Assembly: GCA_003697085.1 (NCBI GenBank)
Contig: RFFU01000040.1
Location: forward strand, 67,133 to 112,270
Length of the DNA: 45,138 bases
From: Candidatus Hydrogenedentota bacterium
Lineage (GTDB): Bacteria > UBA8481 > J006
Reading direction: 5' to 3'
Shown here: piece by piece, positions 19,884 through 44,360 of the stretch
Numbering within the stretch: position 1 is the first letter of the stretch
How the letters are laid out: each line of letters opens with the position of its first letter
Position numbers and translations under genes: made by a program
Notes under the pieces: generated by a model
What the model saw: the letters and a program-made list of their open reading frames with translations, nothing else
Databases searched by the model: none
Told to the model about the DNA's origin: nothing

Positions 19884-22016
19884 TCAGAGGTTTGAAAGGA
19901 AGTAGTAAAACCGCGTGGCAATCCTGCCAAACCAAGAATCGAGCAAAAGATCGCGGAAGAGCCGGAGATTCTCCAGAACCTCGGAATTCGCCGTCGCTCT
20001 TCGAGCAAGGCAGACTTTGTCGCCGGTGGTCGTATCGCCGGAGGAAGAGGCCTGGGAGGCGGAAGCGGTGGAAGAGGAAGTAATCGTAGCGGAATCGATG
20101 TCGAGATTATTTTGGGCCGCTACGGCTGTTTTCCCGTTGACGCTGACTATCGTCGGTACACTGTTCTTGAGATTGATTCCCGACGGAGAACCGGCGGTTT
20201 TATTTGCGTTCTGAAAGGTTCCGGGAATCGTAAGGATGGGAGAAGCGCCCAGCGTAATGATCATTCTGTTCCCACCGGGAAAGGAGATCGAAGCACCGTT
20301 CCCTACGTTGTCTCCCACGACGGGAAAGACCAAATCATCTACAGTAGCAGAGGAATTGGACGCAAGATTGGTATCGAAAAGAACGAGAATCGTATCCCCC
20401 TGTGAGACGTAGCCGTTGGTGTCATTGTCGTACCACACCGCCGAATCCGGAAAGGGCCCGTCGCCGGTGCCCCCCGCCACCGCCGGGGAATCGACGATCG
20501 CGAGCACGTTTCCGTAGAGAATGGGCATCACGATGCTTGCGGGATTCGTCGTTACCTGTTCGTGAGCGGAGATTTCAGTCCCGGAGGGGATGTAGGCCTG
20601 GAAGGTCAACGGAGGGTTGATAATGGGAACATCGTTCTCGAAGGTATAAGTCAGCAAGAGATGTACGGCGGCGGGGTCGGTCGCCAAACCGGTCGGGGTC
20701 TGAACGGAAATATTGAGGTTCGAGAAAGTGACCTTGTCTCCGGAAAACGTGGCCGAAGCGAACGAGGAACCGTCCACGGCCGTGAGCACGCCGTTCTTGT
20801 CGATGTCCACGTAAAGTTGCGCTTTCTTGATGTGAGTGAAGGCCGTTCCGGTCCCGGAATCGAAAATATTGATTTCGTCTAAAATGATGGTATGCCCCGA
20901 ATCGCTGTAAAAGATCATCTCGAGAGCCGTCGTTTCGCTTTCCGTCAGGGCATTCTGGGAATCCGACAAGAACCCGTTGTTCGTCACGAAGAGCGTGGGC
21001 TGCAGTGGCACGGTTCCCGCAACGGTCAGAACCGGGCCGCGGTACGGCGGTTTGAATCCGACGGTCTCTGCGATGAAATTCGTGACAACACTTTGGTTGA
21101 GACTGAATTGATCGCCGCCTCCCAGCCCATCTTTGTATCCGAGCCCACTTGTCAAACCATCCCAGTCAATATCGTCAATCGACTCGAATGCCACTCGAAA
21201 CGTGCGTGCCGGCTCAACCGTCGCCTTGAAATCGTATCCGATGAGAAAATCGGCGATGCCGTTCGTATCCGGAGTATTGGAATCCCAAGTGATCTTGTAA
21301 CCAATATTCGAGAATGTGATTGTGGGATTGAAGCCTTCCGAAACGACGTAGTTTCCCGAAGCCAGAAGAGGATCGCCCCCATCGATCCTCCCGTTCGCAT
21401 TCGAATCCCGGTAAAGTTTGACAAGGGAGATATCGAAGGTATCCGAACCGGAACCCAGACCGTGAAACTTCAATGTTTTGATTTCAATATCCTCGCCATG
21501 TGCGACCATTCGAAATTGCGCCGCTTCGACATCCGTTGCTCCCGGTTCGACGGAAGTATCCACGCCCATTAAAGGGCCGGAATCAAAGTCGAGCAGTCCT
21601 ACAATCGTGATGGAATAGACGGCTCCATCACTCTGTCCACCGCCCGGTGTATCCGCAGTTATACCGAAGAGCAAGCCTTTTACCGCGCGTGTCGGTGTAC
21701 CCGAAAGAACTCCGGTTGCGGCATCGAGGGTAAGACCGTAAGACGCTAATGTTGCGGCCGAACCTCCCAGGCTCCAGTTTTCTCCACCATCCACTCCCCC
21801 GAGTGCAATCGATCCGTTTGCCCGGAACGTGAAGGCATAGGGAACGCCTACTTGCGCGTTGTCGACATCGGTGGTTTCTATGGTAAAGGGCTGGGCCGCA
21901 TGAACAGCTGTCATTATTGAAACGGAGAAGTGCGCCGCACCGAGAACCAACAATATGACGGTGGCAATAACGTTTTCAGTAAGACGGCGCTGTGGGTTTG
22001 GTTTTTGTTCCTTCAT
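19884..22016 (-). CDS. Secreted protein with Ig-like domain and CFI-box-like C-terminal tag
   Basis: A 710-aa exported protein. The signal peptide is long: basic start, hydrophobic ENVIATVILLVLGAAHFSVS, then a likely cleavage after AVHA. Near residues 45-125 is a putative Ig (He_PIG-type) domain ending YGLTLDAATGVLSGTPT. Several beta-rich modules follow with calcium-loop-like turns (YRDSNANGRIDGGD, DIDKNGVLTAVDGS). A Ser/Thr-rich linker leads to C669 in CLARRATANS, then LENLRLFRD, FGR and RFYYFLSNL, resembling a diverged CFI-box C-terminal domain. The ATG at 22016 was chosen for AAGGAG 5 bases upstream and because it begins the signal peptide; the frame extends to 22112. It stands alone, with a possible promoter (TTGCCC-17-TAGATT) near 22155-22185. 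A surface or matrix role is inferred. Confidence 0.75.
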   Translation of the reverse strand: MKEQKPNPQRRLTENVIATVILLVLGAAHFSVSIMTAVHAAQPFTIETTDVDNAQVGVPYAFTFRANGSIALGGVDGGENWSLGGSAATLASYGLTLDAATGVLSGTPTRAVKGLLFGITADTPGGGQSDGAVYSITIVGLLDFDSGPLMGVDTSVEPGATDVEAAQFRMVAHGEDIEIKTLKFHGLGSGSDTFDISLVKLYRDSNANGRIDGGDPLLASGNYVVSEGFNPTITFSNIGYKITWDSNTPDTNGIADFLIGYDFKATVEPARTFRVAFESIDDIDWDGLTSGLGYKDGLGGGDQFSLNQSVVTNFIAETVGFKPPYRGPVLTVAGTVPLQPTLFVTNNGFLSDSQNALTESETTALEMIFYSDSGHTIILDEINIFDSGTGTAFTHIKKAQLYVDIDKNGVLTAVDGSSFASATFSGDKVTFSNLNISVQTPTGLATDPAAVHLLLTYTFENDVPIINPPLTFQAYIPSGTEISAHEQVTTNPASIVMPILYGNVLAIVDSPAVAGGTGDGPFPDSAVWYDNDTNGYVSQGDTILVLFDTNLASNSSATVDDLVFPVVGDNVGNGASISFPGGNRMIITLGASPILTIPGTFQNANKTAGSPSGINLKNSVPTIVSVNGKTAVAAQNNLDIDSATITSSSTASASQASSSGDTTTGDKVCLARRATANSEVLENLRLFRDLLLDSWFGRIATRFYYFLSNL

Positions 22017-22427
22017 CTGCTCTCCTTGGGCACTCATCCCGCATTGCTCCAACCACTCGTCGGTTGAAATCTTGTGGAAAAGCCGGCGGATACCGACACC
22101 TCGCCGTTTCATTTATCGACTCCCTCACCCTATTTTATGACCAACTTTCACCGGAAATCTAGTCTGTTTCGTTGGATTGGGCAAGTTTGAACTGTTTTGT
22201 ACAAAAAATTAATCTAAACGCCGGGAGCGATGATCGGAGCCTCCGAGTCGCCTTTTCCGTCCCCCATCCTTACTGCTTCCGGGGCCCCGCCTGGGAGCGG
22301 TGTTCTGCGCTGTATGCGGTGGCGCCGGGAAATCGGCTCTTCGGGCCGGGGGCGCCGGAAGGAAAGGTCAGAGTTGACTTTCAACGGAGGATTTCTCTTT
22401 TGGCCTTGTTCCCCGAAGGTTTTCTCG

Positions 22428-22629
22428 CCACAAGAGTTCACAGAGAGCGACAGGCAAGGAAGGAGGAGGGAGGCCACTGTTTCTCAAACAAGGTTTTTCA
22501 CCCATCAAGTGAAAACAAGGGTGAACTTCCGATCTGCTCCGTGTTCGAGTCAAATCCCGTCTAATTTCTGCTTTTTCTTTATTCCTTCTCTGTTTTTCTT
22601 CTCTATTAATCTCTCGTGTACTCTCGTGG
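22428..22629. repeat. Imperfect 20-bp inverted repeat flanking a 160-bp spacer
   Basis: CCACAAGAGTTCACAGAGAG at 22428-22447 is matched, with about four differences, by the reverse complement of 22611-22629 (CTCTCGTGTACTCTCGTGG). The spacer is AT-rich and has no gene. It may be a MITE-like remnant or intergenic simple repeat. The rest of the 713-bp region 22017-22729 holds the promoter of the secreted-protein gene and the tRNA promoter, with no supported CDS. Confidence 0.45.
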
Positions 22630-22667
22630 TGAAATCTTCTTCCGGGATTCAGATTTAGGATAAGAGA

Positions 22668-22697
22668 TTGACAAATCTCGGGAGAAGGGAACATAAT
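22668..22697 (+). promoter_or_regulatory. Promoter of tRNA-Gly
   Basis: A perfect TTGACA at 22668-22673, an 18-bp spacer, and CATAAT at 22692-22697, placing the start near 22704, about 26 bases before the mature tRNA 5' end. Confidence 0.75.
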
Positions 22698-22729
22698 TGC
22701 GTAGAGAATTTGAGACTTGCGAACGAGAT

Positions 22730-22802
22730 GCGGGCGTAGCTCAGTCGGTAGAGCATCAGCTTCCCAAGCTGAGGGTCGCGAGTTCGAGCCTCGTCGCCCG
22801 CT
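22730..22802 (+). tRNA. tRNA-Gly(CCC)
   Basis: A 73-base cloverleaf: acceptor GCGGGCG/CGCCCGC, D arm AGCTCAGTCGGTAGAGC, anticodon arm CAGCT-TCCCAA-GCTG with loop TTCCCAA and anticodon CCC, T arm containing GTTCGAGCC, discriminator T. CCA is not encoded. A hairpin CCGCGCC...GGCGCGG at 22889-22908 downstream lacks a T run, so no clear terminator is present. Confidence 0.95.
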
Positions 22803-23019
22803 CGTTTCTGGCCGGAGCCGGCACGAGAGTCGCGCAAAGGCTGGGAATCCCCAAGAGCGCCGCACCACAACCAAGGGTAATCCGCAATCCGCGCCGCACG
22901 AGGCGCGGCAATGACCGAGGTTTTCCTAACGGGTTCTAAGTAAGTTTTTTTACACGGTCCCCGTGGTGACAAAAACAACAGTTTCCTTTAAACTTGCCCC
23001 GGGAGGAAGATTCGATATT

Positions 23020-23373
23020 GTGGCGCGTATTATGAGATGTCGGAGGCGCTTTCCGCGCATCGAAAGGTCCGTGGTTACCTATTATCGAAAGTTGGGGAAC
23101 CCGGCTCTCGAATTGGCCGGATTGTCCCGCAATCTTTCTCGTGGTGGAATTTTGTTGTCGTTGGAGGATTCCTTCGATATTGGAGATGTCTTATCGCTGG
23201 AGATGGTTCTTTTCGAGGGGCGGACGCCCGTGAACGCGATCGGGCGCGTCGTGCGCAAGGAAGACGGCAGCGTGGCACTGGAATTCCTCGAAGTGGACGG
23301 GGATGGAGATGCCCAATTGAAGGAATATATCGAAGCCAGGAGAAAAAAGGAACCGGAGGAAGGCGCGCGATGA
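23020..23373 (+). CDS. PilZ-domain protein
   Basis: A 117-aa single-domain PilZ protein, probably binding cyclic-di-GMP. The RxxxR-type N-terminal motif lies in CRRRFPRIERSVV and the (D/N)xSxxG motif is intact in LSRNLSRGGILL. The remaining beta-barrel strands include VNAIGRVVRKEDGSVALEFL. GGGAGGAAGA at 23001-23010 supports the GTG at 23020; an ATG at 23032 or a GTG at 22963 are alternatives. It overlaps the HDOD gene by 4 bp (ATGA), so the two are translated as a pair and may act in one pathway. Confidence 0.85.
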   Translation: MARIMRCRRRFPRIERSVVTYYRKLGNPALELAGLSRNLSRGGILLSLEDSFDIGDVLSLEMVLFEGRTPVNAIGRVVRKEDGSVALEFLEVDGDGDAQLKEYIEARRKKEPEEGAR

Positions 23374-24248
23374 TGGAGCGCTTTGAGGTTCGGGATTTTC
23401 TCAAAAATGTTGAGAAACTTCCGACGCTTCCGGGGATCGCGATGCGGATCATCGAGATGGCGAACAATCCCAAGTCCGCTGCGGATGATCTCTCGCGAAT
23501 CATCGTCAGCGATCAGTCTCTCTCCGCCAAGGTTTTGCGTCTTGTTAATTCGGCGTATTATGGGATTCGGAACCGCGTCAGTTCCGTCAAACAGGCCACT
23601 GTGATACTCGGCTTCAATACGATCAAGTCGCTGGCGCTTTCGACGGCCATTATGGATAAATTCGCGACAACGGGTGTTGTGGAGGGCTTTTCGCGCGGGG
23701 AATTCTGGAAACATAGTCTAGGCGTAGCAATCACCAACCGGATTCTGGCTCGGAAAACAGGTATGAGGAAGGACGAGGAAGAGACCTTTTTTATGGCGGG
23801 ATTACTGCACGACATCGGAAAGGTCATTTTGGATCAGTATTTTCACGAAGAGTTCGTCCGGGTCTTACAGCATTTGAACACATACGGAGGGTCGTTTCAT
23901 TCGGCGGAGAAGGAAGTCAACGGGCTCACGCATGCGGAGATTGGAGGGTTGCTCGCCAGCCAGTGGCAGTTACCGGAGGAGTTGATTGCAGCGATCCGCT
24001 TCCACCACGCGCCGCAGAACCGGACTGAGCACGTTAAGTACATCGCGGCGACCCATTTCGCCGATATCCTCGTCAAAACGAAGGGATTCGGCAGCGGCGG
24101 CGATCAGGATTTGTCGGGGCTGGACGAGTCGGTGGTCGGGACGCTGGGAATCAGCGAAGCGGATGTCGCCGTGATCGTGGGGGTCGAGATGGATCGCGAA
24201 TATCAGAACGCGTCCGAATTCCTTCGCCTTATGGAAATCGAATCCTAG
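23370..24248 (+). CDS. HDOD-domain signalling protein
   Basis: A 292-aa protein almost entirely made of an HDOD domain, an HD-superfamily fold used in signalling. The N-terminal part reads LPTLPGIAMRIIEM and LSAKVLRLVNSAYYGIRNRVSSVKQA. The metal-type motif is retained in LLHDIGKVILDQYF, and LTHAEIGGLLASQWQLPEEL follows with a His-rich AIRFHHAPQN. Biochemical activity of the family is poorly known; many members link to c-di-GMP, motility or stress. The ATG overlaps the PilZ stop (ATGA) and the transglutaminase gene begins 4 bp after its stop, defining an operon. Confidence 0.9.
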   Translation: MMERFEVRDFLKNVEKLPTLPGIAMRIIEMANNPKSAADDLSRIIVSDQSLSAKVLRLVNSAYYGIRNRVSSVKQATVILGFNTIKSLALSTAIMDKFATTGVVEGFSRGEFWKHSLGVAITNRILARKTGMRKDEEETFFMAGLLHDIGKVILDQYFHEEFVRVLQHLNTYGGSFHSAEKEVNGLTHAEIGGLLASQWQLPEELIAAIRFHHAPQNRTEHVKYIAATHFADILVKTKGFGSGGDQDLSGLDESVVGTLGISEADVAVIVGVEMDREYQNASEFLRLMEIES

Positions 24249-24252
24249 GGGA

Positions 24253-25794
24253 ATGCCTTCCCGACGGCTGGCTGTCATCGTCGGTTCCACCGGCGTTCTT
24301 CTTTTGGCGGGAACCGTGCGGCTTGCCGTCAGCAGTATCTCCCGTGGGGAAAGAGTGGAGGCTCATTTTCCGATGTCGGCGCCGGTCCGATCCGCGACGA
24401 AGAATGATCCTCCGAATCCCCTCCCTCTCAATGCTCTGGAACCGAGAACGTCATGGATGGGGCTTTATATCCAGAAAAAGAAGGTCGGTTGGGGACGTTT
24501 CGCCTTGAAGCGTCTCACCGCCTCCGGCGGTTCGGAGCGGTATCGGATGGAGCAGTTTACCTATATGAATGTTGCGACGATGGGAGTAAGTCAGGAATCA
24601 CGGATCAATTTTACACTCGACTTTACCTCCGATCTTCAGCCGCTCTCCTACACCTTCAGTCTCGAAGCGCCCGGGTTCTGGACGAAGTCGAAGGGTGAGG
24701 TCCACGAGGGAGTTCTCAAGACGAGAATTTCGGCTCCCGGAGGAGACCGGGAATACGAGTTTTCCATCGACAGCGGCGTGGACCTCTTCGGGCTTTCCGA
24801 GTTGCGAGAGGCGATCGACGGGTACGAAGTCGGAAAGAAAGTCTCGGGAGAGATTTTCGAGCCGAATGTGTTCGGGGTCGTTCCCTACTCCTTCAAGGTC
24901 TTGGCGGAGGAATCGGTTCGCGTGGGCGACGCAGTCGAGACGGCCTATCGAATTCACTCCGTGATTCGCGACGTTGTGACGGAGTCGCTGGTTCTTCCCA
25001 ACGGCGATATTCTCCGCTCGGAGGGGCCGATGGGGATCGTGATGGTTCGCGAACCTGAGGCGGTGGCGAAGAAGATGGATGCCGGTACGGATCTCACCGA
25101 TCTCGTCTTCAAATTCTCCATACCCGCCGAAACTTCGATCCCCGACTTCGAGGATGTGCGGCGAGTGAGAATGAGCGTTACGATGGAGGGAGGGATCTTG
25201 GCGGATTCCGGGGCGAGCCAGAGGGTTTTTCTCCGGGGGGATACGCGGGCCGAGGTCGAGATGGATGTCATTCATCCGTATCGCGTGTCATTGACGGAAG
25301 AAGAAAGAGAGAAATGGACCGCCCCGACGCCGTTCCTTCAGGCGGACGATCCGCGTGTCCGGGAAAAGGCCCGTGAGATAACGAAAGGGGCCGGGTCGGA
25401 TTGGGAAAAAGTAACGCGGGTGGTTCATTGGGTGTATCAGAATGTAGAGAAGGTTCCCGCGTTTACTCTGCCCTCCACCGTGGATGTTCTTGAAAGTATG
25501 CGTGGAGATTGCAACGAACATGCGGCGTTGGTGGGTGGTTTGGTTCGTTCCCTGGGAATTCCGTGCCGGACGGCGGCGGGAGTTGTCTTTTTGCAAGGCG
25601 CCTTCTTCTATCACGCCTGGAACGAGGTCTACCTCGGTGGAACGTGGAAGCCTGTGGATGCGACGTTCGATCAGATCCCCGCGAATGCCCTCCGCTTGCG
25701 GATGATTACCGGCAGTCTCGATCGCCAGGTCGGCATCGCCGCGGCCGTCGGGAGGACGAAGATCGAGGTTGAGAGCATTTCGAGAGAACCGTAG
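24253..25794 (+). CDS. Membrane-anchored transglutaminase-like protein
   Basis: A 513-aa protein with an N-terminal hydrophobic anchor (VIVGSTGVLLLAGTVRLAVS), hence probably periplasmic. Residues about 45-300 are a beta-rich domain of unknown function. Residues about 380-490 are a transglutaminase-like domain with the full Cys-His-Asp triad: C420 in MRGDCNEHAAL, H454 in FYHAWNEV and D469 in PVDATFD. Bacterial members are usually proteases or amidases rather than cross-linkers. It starts 4 bp after the HDOD gene with AGGGG just before ATG. Substrate unknown. Confidence 0.85.
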   Translation: MPSRRLAVIVGSTGVLLLAGTVRLAVSSISRGERVEAHFPMSAPVRSATKNDPPNPLPLNALEPRTSWMGLYIQKKKVGWGRFALKRLTASGGSERYRMEQFTYMNVATMGVSQESRINFTLDFTSDLQPLSYTFSLEAPGFWTKSKGEVHEGVLKTRISAPGGDREYEFSIDSGVDLFGLSELREAIDGYEVGKKVSGEIFEPNVFGVVPYSFKVLAEESVRVGDAVETAYRIHSVIRDVVTESLVLPNGDILRSEGPMGIVMVREPEAVAKKMDAGTDLTDLVFKFSIPAETSIPDFEDVRRVRMSVTMEGGILADSGASQRVFLRGDTRAEVEMDVIHPYRVSLTEEEREKWTAPTPFLQADDPRVREKAREITKGAGSDWEKVTRVVHWVYQNVEKVPAFTLPSTVDVLESMRGDCNEHAALVGGLVRSLGIPCRTAAGVVFLQGAFFYHAWNEVYLGGTWKPVDATFDQIPANALRLRMITGSLDRQVGIAAAVGRTKIEVESISREP

Positions 25795-25827
25795 GATAGG
25801 GGGGAGTGGAAGGGAGCCGAGAGAGGA

Positions 25828-26943
25828 ATGAAGACATTCGAGGAACTGGGCGAGACGCTGGTCGAGATTCGTGATCAACTGAAAGGCATCCACGAGATCC
25901 TTCGAAAATTGGAGGGACGGTTCGCAGTTTCCGGGATACCGAACGAGGGTTTGTCAGGCATCTCTTCTTCGGCCTCTACTCGTGACGAGGACCGGGAACG
26001 GGATCCTTTTCCGGAAAGGATCTCCTCGGAAGGAGAAGGTCCTCTGCGCGAACCATCCTTCGATAGCGAAGTTTCGGAAGAGGCTGGGGCGTCGATTCCG
26101 CGAGAGCAGGCACCGGTCGGGAGGCCTGCATCCGATGAGGAGACCGAGATTTCGGCCGTTGAGGAAAAAGGAACGGAGGAGGAGCGCGACGAAGTCCCCC
26201 CGCCCGAGGCGTCGTCCGAGTCCGAGGGAGAAATGGCCGGAGTCGAAGGGGAATTCTCGTCTATTTCTTCCGAACCCGCCCTCTCTGGGGCTGAAACCGC
26301 TTCCGAACCCTCAGAGGACCTCTTCGAACTGGCGGAACTTCCGGACCTCGATGATCTCCTCGGCGGAACTTTTCCCGAGGAGAAAGCGGAATCGAAAGAG
26401 AAAGAGCCGATGGCGGGAGGTTCTTCCGATGAGGTCTCGAAGGACGGCGGGCTATCGGAAGAGGAGCCGATGGATATTCCCGAGATCGACGAATTGTTGG
26501 GACCGGTGGAATCCGCCCAGAAGGGGGAGGCGAGAGGGGAGGAGAATGTGACGACCGCGGTCGATGAAGGCGACCCGATATCCGTCGTCGAGGCGGAGTC
26601 GGAAGGGAGAGAAGCGGATGTCAAGGGGAAGGACACGGAAACAGAGGCGGCGGGTTTGATCCAGGAGACGGTGACTTCCCCCGTTCTCGCCGGTGATGGG
26701 CGGGCAGCGGGGGAGATGGAGGAACGATTCGAGGCGGGAGGGTCGGGGGAGCCCGCCCCCGAGGAAGAGAAGCCGGTGGACGACGACGCGCTTGCGGGAA
26801 TGTTGGAGGAATTTCAGAAGAGTCTCGAATCGGCTCCGGAAGAGAAGAGGGAGGAGGCGGAGAAGGGTTCGGCGGAGGAGAAGGAGAAGTTTGATCTTTC
26901 CGTGGACGATTTCGAGAAGATTCTCGAGAAGGATTCCGGATAG
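25828..26943 (+). CDS. Acidic low-complexity protein with helical ends
   Basis: A 371-aa, strongly acidic protein I do not recognise. Residues 1-36 form a predicted coiled coil (ELGETLVEIRDQLKGIHEIL). The body is rich in Glu, Ser, Pro and Gly and is likely disordered. Short hydrophobic-acidic motifs recur in it: LPDLDDLLGG, IPEIDELLGP and ALAGMLEEF. It ends with LSVDDFEKILEKD. The spaced DLDDLLG-like motifs suggest linear docking sites, as in scaffold proteins. It is 33 bp after the transglutaminase gene and 88 bp before the histidine kinase gene. A scaffold linking these signalling proteins is only a guess. Confidence 0.7.
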   Translation: MKTFEELGETLVEIRDQLKGIHEILRKLEGRFAVSGIPNEGLSGISSSASTRDEDRERDPFPERISSEGEGPLREPSFDSEVSEEAGASIPREQAPVGRPASDEETEISAVEEKGTEEERDEVPPPEASSESEGEMAGVEGEFSSISSEPALSGAETASEPSEDLFELAELPDLDDLLGGTFPEEKAESKEKEPMAGGSSDEVSKDGGLSEEEPMDIPEIDELLGPVESAQKGEARGEENVTTAVDEGDPISVVEAESEGREADVKGKDTETEAAGLIQETVTSPVLAGDGRAAGEMEERFEAGGSGEPAPEEEKPVDDDALAGMLEEFQKSLESAPEEKREEAEKGSAEEKEKFDLSVDDFEKILEKDSG

Positions 26944-27031
26944 CGAGGGACGGAGAAGCGGTGCGCGAAAAGCACGTTATACCGAAGCCAAACGTGGGGA
27001 CATACCTTGGCGAGGGGGCTGTCTGGGTCTG

Positions 27032-29581
27032 GTGACGTCCGAGCCCACGCCGGAAAGTGCAAAAAGAATTCTCGAAAATTCAACCGGGTTTTCCGAACAG
27101 GCCGTGTTGGAGGGGGCGCGAACGGGAAGGGGAATTGGTCCCTCCCGAAATCTTTCGACAACGGAATTTCCACGCCATCTTTCCCGGATTCTCTTCGAAC
27201 CGCTTCTGAAGGAGGAATTCAGTCTTTCGGACGAGGAAGCGTTCTTGAACGGGGTTGTCGAGGAGATTCGGAAGGTTACGGGTGCGGGGGCTGTTTCGAT
27301 TTTGTTGAAAGAGGCGCGGAGCGAACGTGAGACGTTTCTTCTCAGGGCCACGGCCGGTCTGAATCCGGATTGTGTGGGACGCACGAGGATTGTTGCGGGG
27401 GAAGGGATCTCGGGGGAAGCGATTCGGCTCCGGCGAACGCTTGTTTCTCGGAATGTCCACGAGGACGGGAGGTACCTTTTGAGAAGGGAGACGGGGGAAG
27501 AGCGATTTCAGGGGTTGATCGCTGCACCGCTTGTGCGGGGAGAAAAGAGTATCGGCATACTCGTTTTTCACTATGAAGACGGAACGCGGATCGACGAAAA
27601 CCAGGAGCGGATGATCAGTGTCGCAGTGGAGCAGTTGGTTTTTGCGTTGGAAGGGGCTGCTTTGGCGCGGTTGGCGGCGCGGCGTCACAGGGTGCTCGCT
27701 GCCCTCAACGAAGTGGCGAGCCTCGTGGGTAGTTCTCTCAGCGTTCGAGACGTGATCGAGCAGCTGGCGCGCCGCGCCCTGACGATCATCGGTGTCGAGG
27801 CGCTCTTGATTCGGCTTCTGGAACCGCTCACGGGAAGACTCGTTCCCGCCGCCTCCCGAGGACGCTTTCCATCGGGCTCCGCTTTGCCGACGGCGTGTGA
27901 CGTGGATACCTCACTTCCCGGCCAAAGCGTTATTCGACGGCAGGGGGTTGTCTTCGAAAATCCGTCCCGTGCTTCTGAAGATCCTTTTTATGCCCAATTT
28001 CGCAATGTGCTACTTGTTCCGATCCTGGGCCGAACGCGGGTCATCGGAACTCTCGAACTTTTCAATCGTATTCACAGAGAGACGAGAACGCCCGATCGGT
28101 TCGACGAGTATGATCTCCGTGTCATGAGCACGTTGGGGACGGCCGCGGGGCAAGCCTATGCCAAGGCGGACCTTTATGCCGAAATCGAGGCGGTTGCGCT
28201 CAATTATCGCCGGCGGAACAAGGAACTCTCCTTCCTCAATAAACTCTCCCGCCAGGTCCTGGGCTCCCTCTCCGAAGAGGAAATTCTTCATGTCATCTTG
28301 ACCGGAATCACCTCGGGGCATGGTTTGGGCTTCAATCGTGCCCTCATCTTGCTTGTGGATGACGAGGGCCGAAATCTCTGCGGGCGTTTCGGTATCGGCC
28401 CGACGACGGAGGAAGTGGAAGGAATCTGGAAGGAAGTTCCGAAACGGTATCGGACCTTGGAGGATTTTTTCGAGTCGGTCGAATACTCCGATTTGGAAAA
28501 AAGCCCTTTCAACCGCCTGGTTGTTTCCCTCTCTTTTCCTCTTTCCGATTCACGTTCTCTTTTGGCGCGGGTGATTTCCGAGCGCCGGGCGTTTAATCTT
28601 CGCAACGTCTCGACGCTGATGGGAATCGACGGGCAACTGGCGCGGGCGGTCGGGTTGGAGAGCTTTACCGCTGTGCCGATCTTGACTCGCGAATTGGCCA
28701 TCGGAGTCATTCTCGTGGACAACTGTTTCACACGGCGTCCCATCCCCGATTCCGACTTGACGATTCTTCAGACCGTGGCCAACCACTGCGGAATGGCGTT
28801 GGAGGGCGCGAGAATGATGGAGCAGATTCAGTCCGCCGCGCGGAAACTCGAGACCACGACAGCAAAACTGGTGGAATCCGAAAGATTGGCCGCGATAGGA
28901 GAGATCGCTGCTGGCGTTGCTCACGACATCCGCAATCCGCTTACGGCCATCGGAGGCTTTACCAACCGCCTCGCCCGGCGCCTCCCAGAAGGAGATCCGG
29001 GATTCCGCTATGTCGAGATCATCCGGAAGGAAGTGCGGCGCCTGGAAAAACTCGCCCGCGATGTCCTTGACCTTGCATCCGCTCAAAAGACCCCCTCCCG
29101 CCGCGTCGTGATCAATAAACTTCTCGTCCAGTGGTACGAGACGAATGCGGAAATCCTGAAGGAAAAACGAATTCGCATGGAGATTCCCGAAGAGCAATTC
29201 ACCGTTCCGGGAGATCCGATCCTTTTGGGACAAGCCGTTACCAACATCCTAACGAATGCGCTCGAGGCGATCGGCGAGGACGGTATCATCAAATGCCGGA
29301 TCACCGAGCAGGATTCCGCAAAGGAGGGGCGAGCAACGGGCGTGTGCCTCGAAATTACGGATACGGGCGGCGGAATGCCGGAGGCTCTCAGGAATCGCAT
29401 CTTCGAACCGTTCTTCACAACCAAGACGGAGGGGACGGGGTTGGGGCTTTCCTTGGCCTTGAAAGCGGTCAGAGCACACGGAGGAGAGATCGACGTGGCG
29501 GCGCGGGAGAACGAGGGGACGACCTTTCGGATATTTCTTCCCCACGGAGAGATTGAGGAGAGCGCCCCGGACGAGGTATGA
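27032..29581 (+). CDS. Triple-GAF sensor histidine kinase
   Basis: An 849-aa cytoplasmic sensor kinase with no clear membrane segment. Three GAF-type sensor regions lie at about 60-210, 215-385 and 400-600. The dimerisation/phosphoacceptor box AAGVAHDIRNPL has H631. The ATPase domain shows the N box NILTNALEAI, G1 ITDTGGGMP, F box FEPFFTTK and G2 GTGLGLSLALKA. It would autophosphorylate and pass phosphate to a response regulator, none of which is in the window. The GTG at 27032 is the first plausible start, with GAGGGGG about 14 bases upstream. The frame stays open back to 26693 across the acidic-protein gene but that part is a shadow. It is the last gene of the signalling cluster. Confidence 0.88.
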   Translation: MTSEPTPESAKRILENSTGFSEQAVLEGARTGRGIGPSRNLSTTEFPRHLSRILFEPLLKEEFSLSDEEAFLNGVVEEIRKVTGAGAVSILLKEARSERETFLLRATAGLNPDCVGRTRIVAGEGISGEAIRLRRTLVSRNVHEDGRYLLRRETGEERFQGLIAAPLVRGEKSIGILVFHYEDGTRIDENQERMISVAVEQLVFALEGAALARLAARRHRVLAALNEVASLVGSSLSVRDVIEQLARRALTIIGVEALLIRLLEPLTGRLVPAASRGRFPSGSALPTACDVDTSLPGQSVIRRQGVVFENPSRASEDPFYAQFRNVLLVPILGRTRVIGTLELFNRIHRETRTPDRFDEYDLRVMSTLGTAAGQAYAKADLYAEIEAVALNYRRRNKELSFLNKLSRQVLGSLSEEEILHVILTGITSGHGLGFNRALILLVDDEGRNLCGRFGIGPTTEEVEGIWKEVPKRYRTLEDFFESVEYSDLEKSPFNRLVVSLSFPLSDSRSLLARVISERRAFNLRNVSTLMGIDGQLARAVGLESFTAVPILTRELAIGVILVDNCFTRRPIPDSDLTILQTVANHCGMALEGARMMEQIQSAARKLETTTAKLVESERLAAIGEIAAGVAHDIRNPLTAIGGFTNRLARRLPEGDPGFRYVEIIRKEVRRLEKLARDVLDLASAQKTPSRRVVINKLLVQWYETNAEILKEKRIRMEIPEEQFTVPGDPILLGQAVTNILTNALEAIGEDGIIKCRITEQDSAKEGRATGVCLEITDTGGGMPEALRNRIFEPFFTTKTEGTGLGLSLALKAVRAHGGEIDVAARENEGTTFRIFLPHGEIEESAPDEV

Positions 29582-29623
29582 GCCTCGGGAAAGTGGAACG
29601 CTTTCCGATGCGATCTTCCGGTG

Positions 29624-29672
29624 GAGCGCGGACACTCTTGTCCACGGAGGCCGCACTCGCCTTGCGAGGCCT
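29624..29672. repeat. REP-like hairpins between convergent genes
   Basis: GGACA-ctct-TGTCC at 29630-29643 in the context GGAGCGCGGACACTCTTG, followed by CTCGC-ctt-GCGAG within 29650-29672. The layout matches the repeats at 1953 and 19707. It lies in the 112-bp gap between the kinase gene and the convergent glycosyltransferase gene. Confidence 0.65.
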
Positions 29673-29693
29673 GAAAACCTGCGCCGCCGTTCT

Positions 29694-30791
29694 CTATCTC
29701 TCCAAGTAAGGCCGGTATAGATTCCAGTACGCTTCGACCATTCGGCTCGCGGGGAAGTTTTTTCGAATGTAGTCCGTTCCGTTTTCTCGCGCGCGTTTCC
29801 GTTTTGTTTCATTTTCCCACAGTGCCGAGATCGCGCGAGTCAGGTCGGCGACATCCTCCGGCTCGAAAAATTCTCCGTATTCCTCGGTTAAAATCTCGAG
29901 ATTCCCCCCGATTCTCGACGCAACGCAGGGCAAACCCATACCGAGAGCTTCGAGAAGAACGCCGGGAAATCCTTCCTCGCGAGATGGGAGAACGAAGAGA
30001 TCGAGCGACGGAAGGACGCTTCGGACGTCCTCGACGAATCCGAGAAAGCGGATGTGGTCTTCGAGGCGGAGATCCTGAACCAGCGAACGGATTGCCGGCA
30101 TCTCCGGCCCATCGCCTCCCAAAACGAGTCCCGCCGTGGGACAGACATCCAGAAATCTCCGAAAGGCCTGAACGAGAACGGGCAGCGACTTTTCTCTTCG
30201 AAACCCGCAGATCGTGCCGATCAACGGCGAGGTCCCGGGAAGAAGGTCGTCTCGTGATCGTGCTGGAGGAGGATTTTCAAAGAAGGAGTTCGGAAGTCCG
30301 TTGGGGATGACGTGAATCTTTTCCTCGGGGATTCGTTCGCGGTGAATCAATATGGTCTGGACGGCTTGCGACACTGCGGTGACGGCAACGGCACGTCGCG
30401 CGGCATGACGGGTCAGGAGAACCTGTGCGTACCGCCTGTTCAGGTCGAGGCATCGTTCGGAGAGGAAAAGGCTGGTGGATGGGAAAAGTGGGTGAAGAAG
30501 GCCTGCCCAAGCATTGGCGCGAAACAAAAAGGTCTGGAGAACGGTCGGGCGCAGTCTTCTGAGTTCTCGTTCGAGCCGGTGTGCTCCGAAGGGATCGAGG
30601 AAGAACCGGAAATTCAGAGCCCGGGCCTCGATGTCCGCCTTCCGTGCCTGCTCTAACAACGGCCCCTCTCCTTTGATGACCAGGATTGATTTCTTTTCGG
30701 GGTCTATAGGAAGAGCCTCGAGCAGACGCAGGGCCATATGTTCCGTACCGTTCCATTCGGCCGAGGTGAGAAGGAAACAGAGCGACTTCAT
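29694..30791 (-). CDS. Glycosyltransferase family 4 protein
   Basis: A 365-aa GT-B glycosyltransferase with a nucleotide-sugar donor. The N-terminal half begins MKSLCFLLTSAEWNGTEHMA, a variant of the Gly-rich acceptor loop. The C-terminal half has LIGTICGFRREKSLPVLVQAF and GGDGPEMPAIRSLV, and the E-x7-E signature in SREEGFPGVLLEALGMGLP. Its ATG overlaps the stop of the upstream membrane-protein gene (ATGA), so the pair is translationally coupled. With the GT-C-like neighbour it probably makes a surface glycan; donor and acceptor are unknown. Confidence 0.9.
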   Translation of the reverse strand: MKSLCFLLTSAEWNGTEHMALRLLEALPIDPEKKSILVIKGEGPLLEQARKADIEARALNFRFFLDPFGAHRLERELRRLRPTVLQTFLFRANAWAGLLHPLFPSTSLFLSERCLDLNRRYAQVLLTRHAARRAVAVTAVSQAVQTILIHRERIPEEKIHVIPNGLPNSFFENPPPARSRDDLLPGTSPLIGTICGFRREKSLPVLVQAFRRFLDVCPTAGLVLGGDGPEMPAIRSLVQDLRLEDHIRFLGFVEDVRSVLPSLDLFVLPSREEGFPGVLLEALGMGLPCVASRIGGNLEILTEEYGEFFEPEDVADLTRAISALWENETKRKRARENGTDYIRKNFPASRMVEAYWNLYRPYLER

Positions 30792-32329
30792 CGCCCTGCG
30801 CTCAGGGAAAGAAGGGGCTTGCGGAAGAAGACGGTTGCATTCGGACCGGAGAATCTGGCGGTCCAGTGGGGATCGCTCGCCAATAAGTGTTCAAGAGGAC
30901 CGTGGCGGGGAGCAAGGACGATTTCCGCGCCGTACCGGTCGAGCAGGGGAAGGGCGTCCGCCGTGCCGCGGAAGATTTGAAATTGCCACTCACGGATGGT
31001 TTCGAGCGGATAGACGGTGTCGTAGCGAAGATCGAGTGAGACGCGGTACCGAGGCCAGAGATGCCAGGAAAGGTAGGTTCCCCAGTTGAGTGGTGTTCCG
31101 AGATTTCGATAGGGAGTTGCAATCGTACGGAGAAAAAGCATTTCCCGGCGCGGCATCCGATCGGGGATGCGAACGAGAAAGAGTGTCGCGGGAGAGGGGA
31201 GGCGAAGGAGGACGGCGAAGAGAGCGACGGCCAGCGCGAGGTTCGAGACGATCCTGATCGAAGCGGAACGGGACGAATTTCGCTCATGGCGTTCTTTAAC
31301 CTTTACCTCGGACCGGAAGGCCGCGGCCAACGGAACGGGTACAAGAAGAGCGAAGAGCGGGAGATTACGGACGGCGAGCAGTGCTCCCGCCAACCCCGCG
31401 CTCAAGAGAAACGCACTGCGGCATCGGTGCCGAAGGATTTCGCGGCAGATCGCCGCGAGGGTCGCGGCGCCAAGAACGAAGAAGGCCCACGTCGTCGGCG
31501 AACGCAGTTTCGGGTTCCAAGCGCGCCACTCCGAGAGGTGCGTTCCTGTCAGGGGATTCGTCAATCCGCGGACGAGCCATTGCCAAAGCGAAAAACCGTA
31601 GGGATTGATCAGTGTTGCGGGAAAGGAGAGGAGAAGGAGGAAAAGGAGGGGACGAAGGGGGCCGCGATAGGTGTGGTTTGCCGGGAAGTGTTTTTCGAAA
31701 AACCCGCCGAGCAACCAAACGGAGAGATACCCGAGCCCGATGATAAATCCGCCGTGGCAATTCGCCCAGAGTGTGATCAGAGGAACAAAAAGGAAAGAAT
31801 GAAAATGGAAACGGTCCGTATCGGGGGGCAGAAGAAGCGGAAGCAAGGCGATCGAGAAATAGGTGATGAGATGCGGTCGGAAGGAGAAGCCGGGTTGGCA
31901 AAGCAGCGCGACGGGCAGAAGAAGGAAATACGCGAGCGGTCTCGTGGCGGGAGGAAGCCGAGAGCGGACCTGAAGGAAGAGAAGAAGAAAGGTGGAAAAG
32001 ACGAGGAGAAGTCGGACGAGGTGAAGTCCGAACGCCCCGAGAAGGTCCGCGACCGCCGAGAGCGTGACGGCGTAAAGCCACTCGTGGTTGTGCCACGGTC
32101 GTCCGACGGCGGTGAAGGAGAAAACGTCGGCCTTGGGAATCCTTCCGGCTTTCAAGATGAGGTTCCCGGAGAGGAGATGAATAAAGAGATCGGGCGTCGC
32201 CGGCGTCGAGAGAACGAGGTAGAGGAGAAAGAGGAGAGCCAAGAGAGGAAGGAAGAGAGAGCGAAACCGTTCGGCCGGGGGGCCTTCAGATTCGAAGAGA
32301 GCGTACGGTTTCCACGAAACTCCTAACAC
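30788..32329 (-). CDS. Polytopic membrane protein, GT-C-like
   Basis: A 513-aa protein with about ten hydrophobic helices and a soluble C-terminus. The first loop after helix 1 carries TPDLFIHLLSGNLILKAGR and PKADVFSFTAVGRPWHNHEW, a pattern of uncharacterised membrane proteins related to GT-C glycosyltransferases (acidic residue and His in loop 1). A later block LINPYGFSLWQW is also typical. The C-terminal part (TPLNWGTYLSWHLWPRYRVS) resembles the soluble domain of such proteins. The GTG at 32329 follows GGGAGAGGGG; an in-frame ATG at 32485 would add a Lys/Arg-rich segment encoded by a simple-sequence tract and overlap the HAD gene. It is coupled to the GT4 gene. Confidence 0.75.
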   Translation of the reverse strand: MLGVSWKPYALFESEGPPAERFRSLFLPLLALLFLLYLVLSTPATPDLFIHLLSGNLILKAGRIPKADVFSFTAVGRPWHNHEWLYAVTLSAVADLLGAFGLHLVRLLLVFSTFLLLFLQVRSRLPPATRPLAYFLLLPVALLCQPGFSFRPHLITYFSIALLPLLLPPDTDRFHFHSFLFVPLITLWANCHGGFIIGLGYLSVWLLGGFFEKHFPANHTYRGPLRPLLFLLLLSFPATLINPYGFSLWQWLVRGLTNPLTGTHLSEWRAWNPKLRSPTTWAFFVLGAATLAAICREILRHRCRSAFLLSAGLAGALLAVRNLPLFALLVPVPLAAAFRSEVKVKERHERNSSRSASIRIVSNLALAVALFAVLLRLPSPATLFLVRIPDRMPRREMLFLRTIATPYRNLGTPLNWGTYLSWHLWPRYRVSLDLRYDTVYPLETIREWQFQIFRGTADALPLLDRYGAEIVLAPRHGPLEHLLASDPHWTARFSGPNATVFFRKPLLSLSAGR

Positions 32330-32331
32330 GC

Positions 32332-32420
32332 TTTTCCCCTCTCCCTTTTTCCTTTTTTTCCTTTCTCGTTTTGCCTTTTCCCTTTTGCCGTTGTCCCTTT
32401 GCCCTTTGCCTTTCCATGCT
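32332..32420. repeat. Polypyrimidine tract (minus-strand GGCAAAAG satellite)
   Basis: About 90 bases of nearly pure C/T on the plus strand, with units such as TTTTGCCTTTTCCC and CCCTTTGCC. On the coding (minus) strand it reads AAAGGGCAAAGGG-like, matching the tract at 5540-5690. It fills the gap between the HAD gene and the GT-C-like gene and supplies a purine-rich leader to the latter. Confidence 0.75.
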
Positions 32421-32450
32421 TTCGTTTCCTCTCGGTCTTTTCCGGGGGTT

Positions 32451-33164
32451 TCAGCCGAGGGGCTTTTTTTTCGAGCGGCTTGCCTCATTGGGGGCGGAAA
32501 AACGCCGGGAGAAGAAGTCGGGCAATTCCCGGATATTATCCAGAACGAAGGGGGTTTCACTTTCGAGGCGGGAACGGGGATAGGTATGGGTGACGGCAAC
32601 GACATCCAGGCCGGCCGCCTTTGCCGCACGGATACCGCCAAGGGAATCTTCAACCGCGATAAATTCGGACGGTGACGCGGAAAGACGTTCCAGAGCAAGG
32701 AGATAGGATTCGGGATCGGGCTTGGAATGTTTCACGTCATCGGAGGCGACGATTGTTTGGAAAATCCCGGTGAGGTTTTCGTACTGAAGGATCTTTTCGA
32801 TCTCGATCCGCCGTGCTCCCGAGACGAGCGCGAGCCGAAAATTTTTGGAGAGCGTTCGAACGACCTCGACGGCTCCGGGGAAGTAAGGAGGAGCATCACC
32901 GAGCAATTCGAGATAGAGGACGAGTTTCTCGTGGAGGAGGCGTTCGAGCGGCGGAACGGCTCCTTCACCAGGTCGAAGTCCGTGATTCGCGAACGCGATT
33001 CGGAAGGATTCGCGATCATCATAAGCGAGGTAGCGGTCCCAGTATTCCTCCTCGGTCAATTCTAGTCCGTGGCGGCGCAAGACGCCTTGAAGGGCGCGGC
33101 AATGTAACGGCTCGTCGTCGACGAGGACGCCGTTGAAGTCGAGGAGAATGCCGGAAGGGGTCAT
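32451..33164 (-). CDS. HAD-superfamily hydrolase (subfamily IA)
   Basis: A 237-aa protein resembling beta-phosphoglucomutase and phosphatase members with a helical cap. Motif I is LLDFNGVLVDDEPLH: the nucleophile Asp is present but the usual second Asp (D-x-D) is Asn. Motif II is LVSGARR, motif III KHSKPDPESYLLAL and motif IV AVEDSLGGIRAAKAAGLD. The enzyme probably acts on a phosphorylated sugar or metabolite. The Asn may alter acid-base catalysis. The ATG overlaps the stop of the upstream membrane gene (ATGA). It is part of the minus-strand glycosyltransferase operon. Confidence 0.9.
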   Translation of the reverse strand: MTPSGILLDFNGVLVDDEPLHCRALQGVLRRHGLELTEEEYWDRYLAYDDRESFRIAFANHGLRPGEGAVPPLERLLHEKLVLYLELLGDAPPYFPGAVEVVRTLSKNFRLALVSGARRIEIEKILQYENLTGIFQTIVASDDVKHSKPDPESYLLALERLSASPSEFIAVEDSLGGIRAAKAAGLDVVAVTHTYPRSRLESETPFVLDNIRELPDFFSRRFSAPNEASRSKKKPLG

Positions 33165-33796
33165 GAAGACGCCAGTCTTGCGGCGAAGGCAAGGAGAAGA
33201 TGTTCCAGGGGAACGAAGAGCGCCGAAAGAAAAAGGGCCAGCGGAAGAAAGGGAATCCTACTCGCCCAGGTTCCGAGGTTGAGGAGGAAGAGAAAAGACC
33301 AGAAACCGGCGGCCGCGCTGAGAAAGAGAAAGGTTCCGACGAGCGGGCGGTGGTTTTGAGTCAGAAGAGGCATAAGGAGCGCGGGTACGAGGATAAGAAG
33401 TCCCGCGCCGGCCTTTTTTCGTGGAACGGGTGGAGGGAGAAGAGCAGGAAGCACGGAGCCAGTCATTACGGCGGCGAGCCCTGAACCGGCGACGAGTGCG
33501 AACGCGAGAATAACAGGAAGCGAGATGCGATAAGAGGTAAAACGAAGGAGGAAGGCGTGAAGGAGAGTGAAGGCGGTGGCGTACACGACGAGGAGCCGGT
33601 AGGGGCGGGCGGGACCTTCCCGGCCGGCGAAGGAATTCGCGAAACTCGTCCAGAAGAAGGCGGAGAAGAGTGCCAACAGGATCGGTGAGACGGTGAGGAA
33701 GCCGCTCGGGAGGAGGGCGAGTGCTATGTTTTCATCCCGCGTCGTGGCCAGAAACGAGAGGAACGAAAAGGAGGAGAGAGCCAGCGGAGTGCGCAA
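33161..33796 (-). CDS. Small polytopic membrane protein of unknown function
   Basis: A 211-aa very hydrophobic protein with about six helices, for example IALALLPSGFLTVSPILLAL, LPVILAFALVAGSGLAAVMT and LLILVPALLMPLL. No family is recognised. The start is uncertain. The frame enters from the subtilase gene; TTG at 33796 has GAGGG just upstream, and CTG at 33817 overlaps the subtilase stop (CTGA). Its TGA overlaps the HAD ATG, so it is coupled to that gene. It could be a transport or glycolipid-assembly subunit, but nothing in the sequence shows this. Confidence 0.65.
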   Translation of the reverse strand: MRTPLALSSFSFLSFLATTRDENIALALLPSGFLTVSPILLALFSAFFWTSFANSFAGREGPARPYRLLVVYATAFTLLHAFLLRFTSYRISLPVILAFALVAGSGLAAVMTGSVLPALLPPPVPRKKAGAGLLILVPALLMPLLTQNHRPLVGTFLFLSAAAGFWSFLFLLNLGTWASRIPFLPLALFLSALFVPLEHLLLAFAARLASS

Positions 33797-33813
33797 GAAA
33801 CCCTCGGGAGGTC

Positions 33814-36129
33814 TCAGCCGATACCGCGCGCCGCGGCGTAATAGGCGGAGATAACGAAGCGGCCGGAATGGTTCGAAAGGAATCGATCGCGAAGACGGCG
33901 AAGCCTTGAAAGAAGGCGGGAAAAGAGAGAATTGGGTGGGAGACGGTTGAAGAGACACCCCCCGCTGGGACTTCCGGCGCTTCCGCCCACGTTGACGATC
34001 GAGGGTGCCGAAACGGTGAAGGGCGCCGCGGAATAGGCGAACGCCTGTTCCGGTCCCGTTGCGAAGGCGGTGGTCGTGGCGTCGGTCGCTACTGCGAAAA
34101 TGTAATACGTCTGGCCGACGGTGAGCGGGGAGAGGTCGAGCGTTTCGTGCTCGTCGTTCTCGAGATTCTGGGCGAGGAGAACTCCATTTCGACCGGTACG
34201 GTCCGTGTCCGCGTAAATGTCGATCGTGATGGCATTCGTTTCGCTCTGATAAGCCTTCCAGCCGACGTCGATGCTGGAAACGACGACGCTGGCGCTTGCC
34301 TGGGATTCCACCTTCAGGAAGAGCGCCGAAGGAAAGTGAACGACCTGTGTCCCCGCGAAAGCCAGTTTGGAGTAGACCCCGCGTGCGCTTTCGGCTCCCC
34401 CCAAGGAGACCGGAGCACCTACGTATAGAGTTTCGGAGGCCGGCGGACCTCCGGTGATGCCGTTGGACGCTTCCGATTCCCCGTTGATATAGAGGATCAT
34501 CCCGCTGTCGCCGTAAGTGACGGCGATATGGTACCATTGGCTGTCGTTGAGAGTGGTGGTGGAGACAAGGGTACCGGAATCCGTCAGGCGGTATTCGACC
34601 TTGCTGTCGGAGCGAAGGATCAGGTCGAGGTTGCCGGAGGAATGCCCGAGGTTGCCGCGTTGCGTCAGCAGAAAAGCCGTGTCCGAGGGCTGAGTTCCGG
34701 CGAAAGGCTTGAAATAAAACTGAATCGTTCCCTTGTTCTTCGTCAGATCTCCGGCGAAGCCGACATTGGAATCCGTTCCGGTCAGAAAAAGTCCCTTTTC
34801 GGATTGACGTCCGCCGGAGGAAAGATCAGCCGTGCCGGTATCTTTTCCGAAGACGGGCGAGAAGGAGTCGGGATAGGCCGTGCCTGCTCCGCCGACGGAG
34901 AGGAGCCGGCGCAGGTTGACCCGGCCCGCTCCCGTCTTCTCATCGAATCCCGCTTCTCCGATGTCGTCCGCCGTCGATCGAAGGAAATGGAGAAATTGAT
35001 CGGGGCTGAGGTTGGGGCGGAGCGAGCGGAGAAGGGTTGCGGCGGCCGAAACGACCGGCGCGGAAAAGGAGGTTCCACTTTGATAACCGGTTTTATTCTC
35101 CAGTTTGAGAACTTTCACGTTTTGCCCTGGAGCGACTACATCCACCCCGTTGAGACTCGACGTAGGCTGACCGTATTTGGAGAACGAAGCGAGAGCGTCC
35201 GAGGAAGTCGAGGTGCCGACCGCGATGGTGTTTGTTGAACTAGCGGGATAATCGATCGGTGTGGGGTTATTCCCAAAGGTTTGGTCATTTCCCGCGGCCG
35301 CAACGACGATCACTCCGGCGTCGACGGCATCGACGATGGCTTGTTCCACAACGTTATCAACGAGTCCGCCGGTTCCCTCGAAACCCAAGGAGAGATTGAT
35401 CACCCGGGCTCCCAACGCCACGGCCTTTCGGATACCCGTCTCGATATCGAGACTCGTGCCGATTGCGTCCTCCCCGCTCAAGACACGCACGGGCAACAGC
35501 GGCGCGTTCCAATCCGTTCCCGCCAGCAACACCCCGTTGTTCGTGATGGCTCCCGCCACGCCGGCGACTTCCGTGCCGTGGCCGCTTCCACCGCCTTCAC
35601 TCTTCGTATCGTTCGGGTCGTTGTCGTTGTCGATGATATCGACCTTCTCGCCGTAAACGAGACGTCCCGCGAGATCAATGTGGTCGGTGTCGGCGCCGGA
35701 ATCGACGATCGCGATCGTTTCCGAGGTGGAACCTCTTGTGATCTCCCACGCATCGAAGGCATCGATCAGCCGGAGAGTGAATTGATCCCCGAGTTCGGGA
35801 TCGTTCGGGACGACCGAGGCCGCGTGGTAGAGATAATTCGGCTGGGCAAATTCGACGTCGGGATCCGCAGAAAGCTCCGCAACGGCTGCGGGCACGGACT
35901 GTCCTGTTCGCGGAGAGAGGACGGCCAACTTTCCTTTCCGGGTCAGGATCGAAAAGCCTTTCGCGGCGGCGGTTTGAGCCTTCTTTCCCGCCCCGGGACG
36001 ATACTTGACGATCACTTGTCCGGGAACGTACGGCGGCGAGGTTGCCGCAACGGCCAAGGCTGGAGCCAGTATCCGGGCGGCTACGAACGAGAAGAGAAGC
36101 AATGACAGCAGCGGAAGAAACCTTTTCAT
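33814..36129 (-). CDS. Secreted subtilisin-like serine protease with LamG and CFI-box-like tag
   Basis: A 771-aa exported S8 protease. The signal peptide (about 1-29) is LPLLSLLLFSFVAARILAPA followed by LAVAA. A propeptide-like region (33-105) contains PGQVIVKY and VEFAQPNYLYH. The catalytic domain has D143 in IVDSGAD, H184 in GHGTEVAG, N281 and S354 in SGTSFSAP. Next come a LamG-type lectin fold (about 430-590) and a beta domain near 600-710. The C-terminal tag has a Gly/Ser linker, then C725 in CLFNRLPPNS, LRRLRDRFL, GRFV and YY. There is no Shine-Dalgarno before the ATG; a TTGATT-16-TTAAAT promoter ends just upstream. It is first in a minus-strand gene group with membrane and glycosyltransferase genes. 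Confidence 0.93.
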   Translation of the reverse strand: MKRFLPLLSLLLFSFVAARILAPALAVAATSPPYVPGQVIVKYRPGAGKKAQTAAAKGFSILTRKGKLAVLSPRTGQSVPAAVAELSADPDVEFAQPNYLYHAASVVPNDPELGDQFTLRLIDAFDAWEITRGSTSETIAIVDSGADTDHIDLAGRLVYGEKVDIIDNDNDPNDTKSEGGGSGHGTEVAGVAGAITNNGVLLAGTDWNAPLLPVRVLSGEDAIGTSLDIETGIRKAVALGARVINLSLGFEGTGGLVDNVVEQAIVDAVDAGVIVVAAAGNDQTFGNNPTPIDYPASSTNTIAVGTSTSSDALASFSKYGQPTSSLNGVDVVAPGQNVKVLKLENKTGYQSGTSFSAPVVSAAATLLRSLRPNLSPDQFLHFLRSTADDIGEAGFDEKTGAGRVNLRRLLSVGGAGTAYPDSFSPVFGKDTGTADLSSGGRQSEKGLFLTGTDSNVGFAGDLTKNKGTIQFYFKPFAGTQPSDTAFLLTQRGNLGHSSGNLDLILRSDSKVEYRLTDSGTLVSTTTLNDSQWYHIAVTYGDSGMILYINGESEASNGITGGPPASETLYVGAPVSLGGAESARGVYSKLAFAGTQVVHFPSALFLKVESQASASVVVSSIDVGWKAYQSETNAITIDIYADTDRTGRNGVLLAQNLENDEHETLDLSPLTVGQTYYIFAVATDATTTAFATGPEQAFAYSAAPFTVSAPSIVNVGGSAGSPSGGCLFNRLPPNSLFSRLLSRLRRLRDRFLSNHSGRFVISAYYAAARGIG

Positions 36130-40084: not shown

Positions 40085-40154
40085 GAGATCGTGGAAGAAT
40101 TCCCCGGCGTCGGCGGGTAGCGATTCCTGTTGCGGGAATCGGTCGCCTATTTTT
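40085..40154. repeat. 70-bp direct repeat, right copy (target duplication)
   Basis: Second copy of 39336-39405. It carries the last codons of the nucleotidyltransferase gene and the terminator hairpin out of context, then runs into the 3' end of the aas gene. The single difference (A at 40149 for T) creates the TAG stop of aas. Confidence 0.92.
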
Positions 40155-43665: not shown

Positions 43666-43666
43666 T

Positions 43667-44281: not shown

Positions 44282-44317
44282 CGAAGGGCGCTTTCCGGCT
44301 CGGCCGGAGCCACTGAA

Positions 44318-44335
44318 AGTGAGTATGTGCTCACT
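44318..44335. promoter_or_regulatory. TetR-type operator copy before the CPBP-aas operon
   Basis: AGTGAGTATGTGCTCACT: arms AGTGAG and CTCACT around TATGTG. It is nearly the same as the palindrome at the tetR promoter (44940-44955). On the minus strand a CATACT lies within it, so repressor binding would block the polymerase, though the -35 is weak. Confidence 0.75.
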
Positions 44336-44360
44336 TGCATCGTCCGCGCCGGTTCGTCCG

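Follow-up and report, generated by a model that had tools for sequence, protein, structure and literature searches.

Two exported proteins encoded in the 45,138-nucleotide stretch of DNA analyzed here (the window) have unrelated bodies but end in the same short tail, and the question raised by this locus is what the tail is and what it might do for the proteins that carry it. The two genes and their tails are arranged as follows.

19884..22112, minus strand: 742-aa ORF for a tagged exported protein with an Ig-like body (He_PIG, sub-threshold)
19884..20012, minus strand: short, apparently CFI-derived tail of the 742-aa ORF, CLARR...LRLFRD...FGR...FYYFLSNL-stop (NF041770, 12 bits against a cut-off of 40)
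33814..36129, minus strand: tagged subtilase (S8) of 771 aa, with prodomain and LamG domain
33814..33957, minus strand: short, apparently CFI-derived tail of the subtilase, CLFNR...LRRLRD...SGR...YYAAARGIG-stop (NF041770, 13.6 bits against a cut-off of 40)
33958..33993, minus strand: small-residue linker ahead of the subtilase tail Cys, read from the translation

Within the 742-aa ORF, the internal Met33 is the likelier start; it gives a cleaner signal peptide and a protein of 710 aa, the length assigned to it in the preliminary description of the window. The tail of this protein is CLARRATANSEVLENLRLFRDLLLDSWFGRIATRFYYFLSNL*, with the Cys codon at 20012-20010 and the stop at 19884. The subtilase tail is CLFNRLPPNSLFSRLLSRLRRLRDRFLSNHSGRFVISAYYAAARGIG*, with the Cys codon at 33957-33955 and the stop at 33814, and its Cys is the single Cys of the whole protein. 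The tail coordinates first given were correct within 3 bases. Aligned locally, the two tails scored 53, compared with a mean of 20.8 (standard deviation, 4.1) for shuffled sequences, and 1 of 5,000 shuffles was as good. A profile made from the tails of another phylum recovered both at an E value of about 2.5e-11, with a clean gap to the remaining C termini. These results bear out the original observation that the two proteins share a tail. The equal Cys-to-Ser spacing that had also been read from them (C-x8-(N/G)S, with a shared N) proved to be a coincidence of these two tails, as the distance from the Cys to RD varies from 16 to 23 residues across the family.

To place the tails in a wider context, we compared the source genome (G000, 3.2 Mb) with one other genome of its phylum (G001; same order, other family) and with three genomes that make up a second small phylum in our set (G030, G098, and G099). 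The CFI-box-CTERM model (NF041770) gave five sub-threshold matches in the source genome, each ending a long ORF, and a profile of those five tails, run against the same genome, yielded nine credible tailed ORFs in total. The genome-wide collection of tailed proteins proposed at the outset has therefore produced further members. The profile search also found four tailed ORFs in G001 and 18, 7, and 15 matches in G030, G098, and G099, respectively; a few of the G030 matches are dispersed tail pieces, and each genome of the second phylum has 7 to about 14 tails. Because circularity had to be excluded, we built an HMM only from 26 second-phylum tails and ran it over 873 C termini from the G000 and G001 DNA around tailed genes. 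All 13 G000/G001 tails ranked first, with E values from 2.8e-13 to 6e-7, and the next match had an E value of 0.6. A plain DNA pattern search for the tail was uninformative. Among 386 genomes, 22 matched the tail profile at an E value of ≤1e-6, and the short tail type was found in five of these, the genomes of the two phyla. The other matching loci that were inspected carry canonical or canonical-length CFI-box tails extending beyond YY, and the tails of L181, L182, and L189 look intermediate between the short and the canonical-length forms.

Several genomic details accompany this distribution. Four of the nine tagged genes of the source genome share one 112-kb contig (G000:C70), of which the window covers positions 67133-112270. 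At L067 (G030:C4:221263-226000), a tagged gene is followed by several extra DNA copies encoding the tail but no gene body, some of them with a similar terminator-like sequence after them, so that the tail end resembles a dispersed or recombining cassette. At L057 (G000:C99:3647-4343), the tail lies within a short ORF adjoining a frame with 11 Asp codons followed by Gly codons; this gene appears to have been broken by a slipped repeat or an assembly error, and the site is possibly phase variable.

The consensus of the tails is C-[LVI]-hydrophobic-x-[R], followed by LRxxRD, GR, YY, and the stop. The C, R, and D are invariant across 39 tails from the two phyla, and the spacing from RD to YY, with GR in between, is 16 in 37 of the 39. 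The stop lies 1 to 8 residues past YY except in four longer tails, which were trimmed for the spacing count: one longer tail from G030 and three of the 13 G000/G001 tails, which run on into a membrane span ending in Arg or Lys. No span follows YY in the other 10 G000/G001 tails or in the second-phylum tails that were read. Ahead of the Cys, most G000/G001 members have a linker of S, G, T, N, and D residues, frequently with SD or GD directly preceding the Cys, and P-[AS]-A is often found at this place in the second phylum. The tails have a mean net charge of +4, and both of their helices are amphipathic. The AlphaFold2 model of the subtilase tail, of low confidence (62.7), is a hairpin of two helices. 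In five of the eight intact members of the source genome, the tail Cys is the sole Cys of the mature part, and an internal disulfide is therefore impossible in those five.

A comparison of the tail profile with the CFI-box profile by hhalign gave a probability of 96.8 and an E value of 3e-10 over 31 columns. Together with the sub-threshold NF041770 matches at the tails, this agrees with the first impression of a diverged CFI-box-like tag. Judged by these profiles, the short tail and the second half of CFI-box-CTERM are homologous. Short tails, scored as whole proteins or as tails, reach 12 to 22 bits against the NF041770 cut-off of 40, while canonical examples reach 55 to 107. With 30 bits as the best match in the five genomes, a canonical CFI-box above the cut-off is absent from all of them, and the short form thus stands in the place of the canonical one. 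The AlphaFold2 model of the canonical domain consists of four helices (mean pLDDT, 77; pTM, 0.61), the middle two of which are matched by the window tail. For this model, no structural relative was found in the PDB and only weak matches were found in BFVD; a sequence search returned no relative of solved structure, and a literature search found no mention of CFI-box-CTERM or CFIATAAYG.

On plasmids and viral contigs, canonical CFI-boxes are found at the C termini of cold-shock, TPR, HNH, Mrr-like restriction endonuclease, and kinase-like proteins. Most of these show no export signal by eye and are of cytoplasmic type, and the Cys is invariant in them too. The presence of canonical boxes on cytoplasmic-type proteins indicates that the ancestral domain was not a secretion signal, and the conservation of the Cys on cytoplasmic-type and exported proteins alike speaks against its serving an extracellular enzyme only, although the short form may since have acquired a new function. 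The preliminary description held that a tail on cytoplasmic proteins would speak against its proposal; the short tails are on exported proteins, and it is the canonical family that also ends cytoplasmic-type ones. Individual canonical examples include an HNH-endonuclease-like protein on a viral contig (L081:2698-3252) and related TPR proteins on a 5-kb Acinetobacter plasmid (L071) and on viral contigs L079, L080, L084, and L085.

We then considered the proteins to which the short tail is attached. A crude rule detected an export signal in seven of the nine members of the source genome; of the remaining two, L057 is the frame-broken fragment, and in L056 a hydrophobic stretch could be seen by eye at the N terminus. 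Most full-length tailed members of the family carry export signals, and the tail is always C-terminal. The bodies are unrelated, comprising subtilases with LamG, NHL beta-propellers, LamG alone, Ig-like proteins, and bodies without assignment. Orthologs in G000 and G001, which belong to different genera and are 40 to 50% identical, both retain the tail: the G001 ortholog of the 742-aa ORF (L062) has 40% identity over 690 aa, and that of the subtilase (L064) has 50% identity. In the neighbor comparison, no gene recurred beside tailed genes in both phyla, the exception being an operon conserved between G000 and G001 only. This sugar-use operon encodes a binding protein, two outer-membrane-like proteins (one with CBM48), a CBM48-like lipoprotein, the tagged subtilase, and an alpha-amylase. 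Immediately downstream of the tagged subtilase, positions 33161-33796 of the window hold a hydrophobic ORF of about 210 aa without a match in a Pfam search. Farther along, a single ORF at 40147-43725 seems by eye to fuse an MFS transporter, an acyltransferase, and an AMP-binding (acyl-ligase) part.

On balance, we favor the view that the tails are all homologous and descend by shortening from the CFI-box, serving as a C-terminal tag, specifically a lineage-specific envelope sorting tag, in two small phyla. A sorting function is likely. The sorting or anchoring signal first suggested is plausible in that the tail is multi-copy, strictly C-terminal, and carried by unrelated exported proteins in every genome examined of the two phyla; the associated idea of cleavage or lipidation at the Cys found no support, since most tails have no membrane span, a feature that Cys-based (sortase-type) sorting signals require, no linked enzyme was found, and the Cys is invariant in cytoplasmic-type CFI-boxes. 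By our proposal, an ancestral CFI-box would have been shortened; the Cys and two helices with RD, GR, and YY persist in the tail, and the fourth helix and the helix signature CFIATAAYG are gone. A tailed protein would cross the inner membrane via Sec export. Its helical hairpin would then be recognized within the periplasm or on the periplasmic side of the outer membrane, and this recognition would deliver the protein to the cell surface or retain it there. The flexible linker would hold the working protein apart from the tag. Because most members have no membrane span, the tag most likely acts without cleavage inside the membrane. The tail Cys might be an attachment or cross-linking point, which is a guess, and for exit through the outer membrane a divergent SprA-like channel is currently the strongest candidate.

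Alternatively, the tail could be a structural or docking domain, acting by pairing or as an amphipathic hairpin on a membrane surface, that stays on the protein and has a role inherited from the cytoplasmic-type CFI-box. The occurrence of canonical CFI-boxes at the ends of cold-shock, TPR, restriction-endonuclease-like, HNH, and kinase-like proteins implies that a compartment-independent role exists, and both the predicted four-helix canonical domain (mean pLDDT, 77) and the positive charge (mean net, +4) and two amphipathic helices of the tails would suit docking. However, the short tail lacks the parts of the fold formed by h1 and h4, and intact short forms sit on unrelated exported proteins, always a few residues from the C terminus. 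We regard docking as a possible explanation, clearly less probable than sorting.

Returning to the envelope sorting tag, we searched for partner proteins. A SprA_N match led to a 2,100-aa SprA/Sov-like protein in the source genome (L211:6455-12754; G000:C50), which matched the T9SS translocon model TIGR04189 with an E value of 5.5e-42 and 143 bits against a cut-off of 200. Divergent SprA-like ORFs of 1,815 to 2,117 aa are present in G000, G001, G030, and G099, and none was detected in G098, a genome that is 81% complete. The SprA-like protein of G001 (L220) is encoded near LptF/G-like genes. A SprA-like ORF was also found in 12 of 45 other genomes and, weakly, in 1 of 10 canonical-CFI genomes. 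The co-occurrence of SprA-like ORFs and tails gave Fisher P values of 0.03 (against the 45 other genomes) and 0.02 (against the canonical-CFI genomes), uncorrected for phylogeny; as co-occurrence is confounded by kinship, the link is a lead only. It is rather doubtful that the short tail constitutes a third, helical signal class for divergent type IX-like (SprA) secretion, arising by the trimming of a CFI-box first used on cytoplasmic proteins, but such a link, if true, would mean that a class of secretion signals has so far gone unrecognized.

A further reading, less probable again, likens the tail to MYXO-CTERM, as a signal for lipidation at the Cys and for cleavage by a CPBP-family protease. 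In Myxococcus xanthus, the invariant Cys of MYXO-CTERM is required for cleavage (PMC11980579), and the tails described here likewise have an invariant Cys, behind a small-residue linker, and in 3 of 13 G000/G001 cases a membrane-spanning segment with Arg or Lys. Each of the five tailed genomes encodes CPBP proteases, and the window itself contains a borderline ORF.

43667..44398, minus strand: possible CPBP (Rce1-like) intramembrane protease ORF with an EEWFYR motif (21.1 bits; 22.8 with neighboring matches; cut-off, 22.4)

The entire ORF had no Pfam match at an E value of ≤1e-3, and it is a weak, unlinked candidate for a tail-processing enzyme. Against a lipidation signal, CPBP proteins are also present in 11 of 14 control genomes, the second-phylum tails read and 10 of 13 G000/G001 tails have no span past YY, about 40 residues separate the Cys from any span where MYXO-CTERM enters its helix directly, and the same Cys is invariant in cytoplasmic-type CFI-boxes. 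Exosortase was found in G030 and G099 but not in G000, G001, or G098 at an E value of ≤1e-3, and its absence from the latter three led us to reject it as a common partner of the tails. Finally, it is very improbable that the tails are what erosion has left of the CFI-box and are without function today, as the loss of the most conserved canonical motif and the scattered tail-like DNA pieces beside one G030 gene would suggest, given the constant RD-to-YY spacing (37 of 39), the invariant C, R, and D in 39 tails of two phyla, and the retention of the tail in 40 to 50% identical orthologs across genera.

The tail is thus a truncated, previously undescribed variant of a known C-terminal domain, on exported proteins of two small phyla. 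It marks exported, probably surface-displayed proteins of phyla that are nearly unstudied, and its profile can be used for their annotation. Although its name is that of a sorting domain, the CFI-box is found on proteins of cytoplasmic type and can have a role other than sorting.

Compared with CFI-box-CTERM, the short tail has the same C-terminal place, a Cys followed by hydrophobic residues, and LRxFRD, GR, and YY in the same order and at nearly equal spacing. It differs in lacking the FIATAAYG run, so that the Cys and the next hydrophobic residue alone remain of the CFIATAAYG-like motif, and in lacking SPP and the fourth helix after YY; it has about 45 residues compared with 69 or more, and it was found here on exported proteins only. 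The MYXO-CTERM/myxosortase system (PMC11980579) is similar in its invariant Cys near the C terminus and in its lineage-wide occurrence on exported proteins in many copies per genome. Unlike MYXO-CTERM, however, most short tails have no membrane span and Arg cluster, the order of Cys motif, helix, and Arg is not followed (a helix is present in 3 of 13 G000/G001 tails), a long conserved hairpin extends past the Cys, and no protease is linked. The known T9SS C-terminal domains (CTDs) are seven-stranded beta-sandwiches (PMC10994853; PMC12618676 for type A), and the published signals are recognized by PorV or PorP-type shuttles (PMC10994853, PMC12618676). The type A and type B CTD models (TIGR04183 and TIGR04131) did not match the tailed proteins or tails scanned, and the short tail is small and predicted to be helical, so that a helical T9SS signal would be a departure. 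What the tailed proteins have in common with both types of type IX cargo is the combination of a signal peptide and a C-terminal tag on diverse large exoproteins, and four of the five tailed genomes encode a divergent SprA-like protein.
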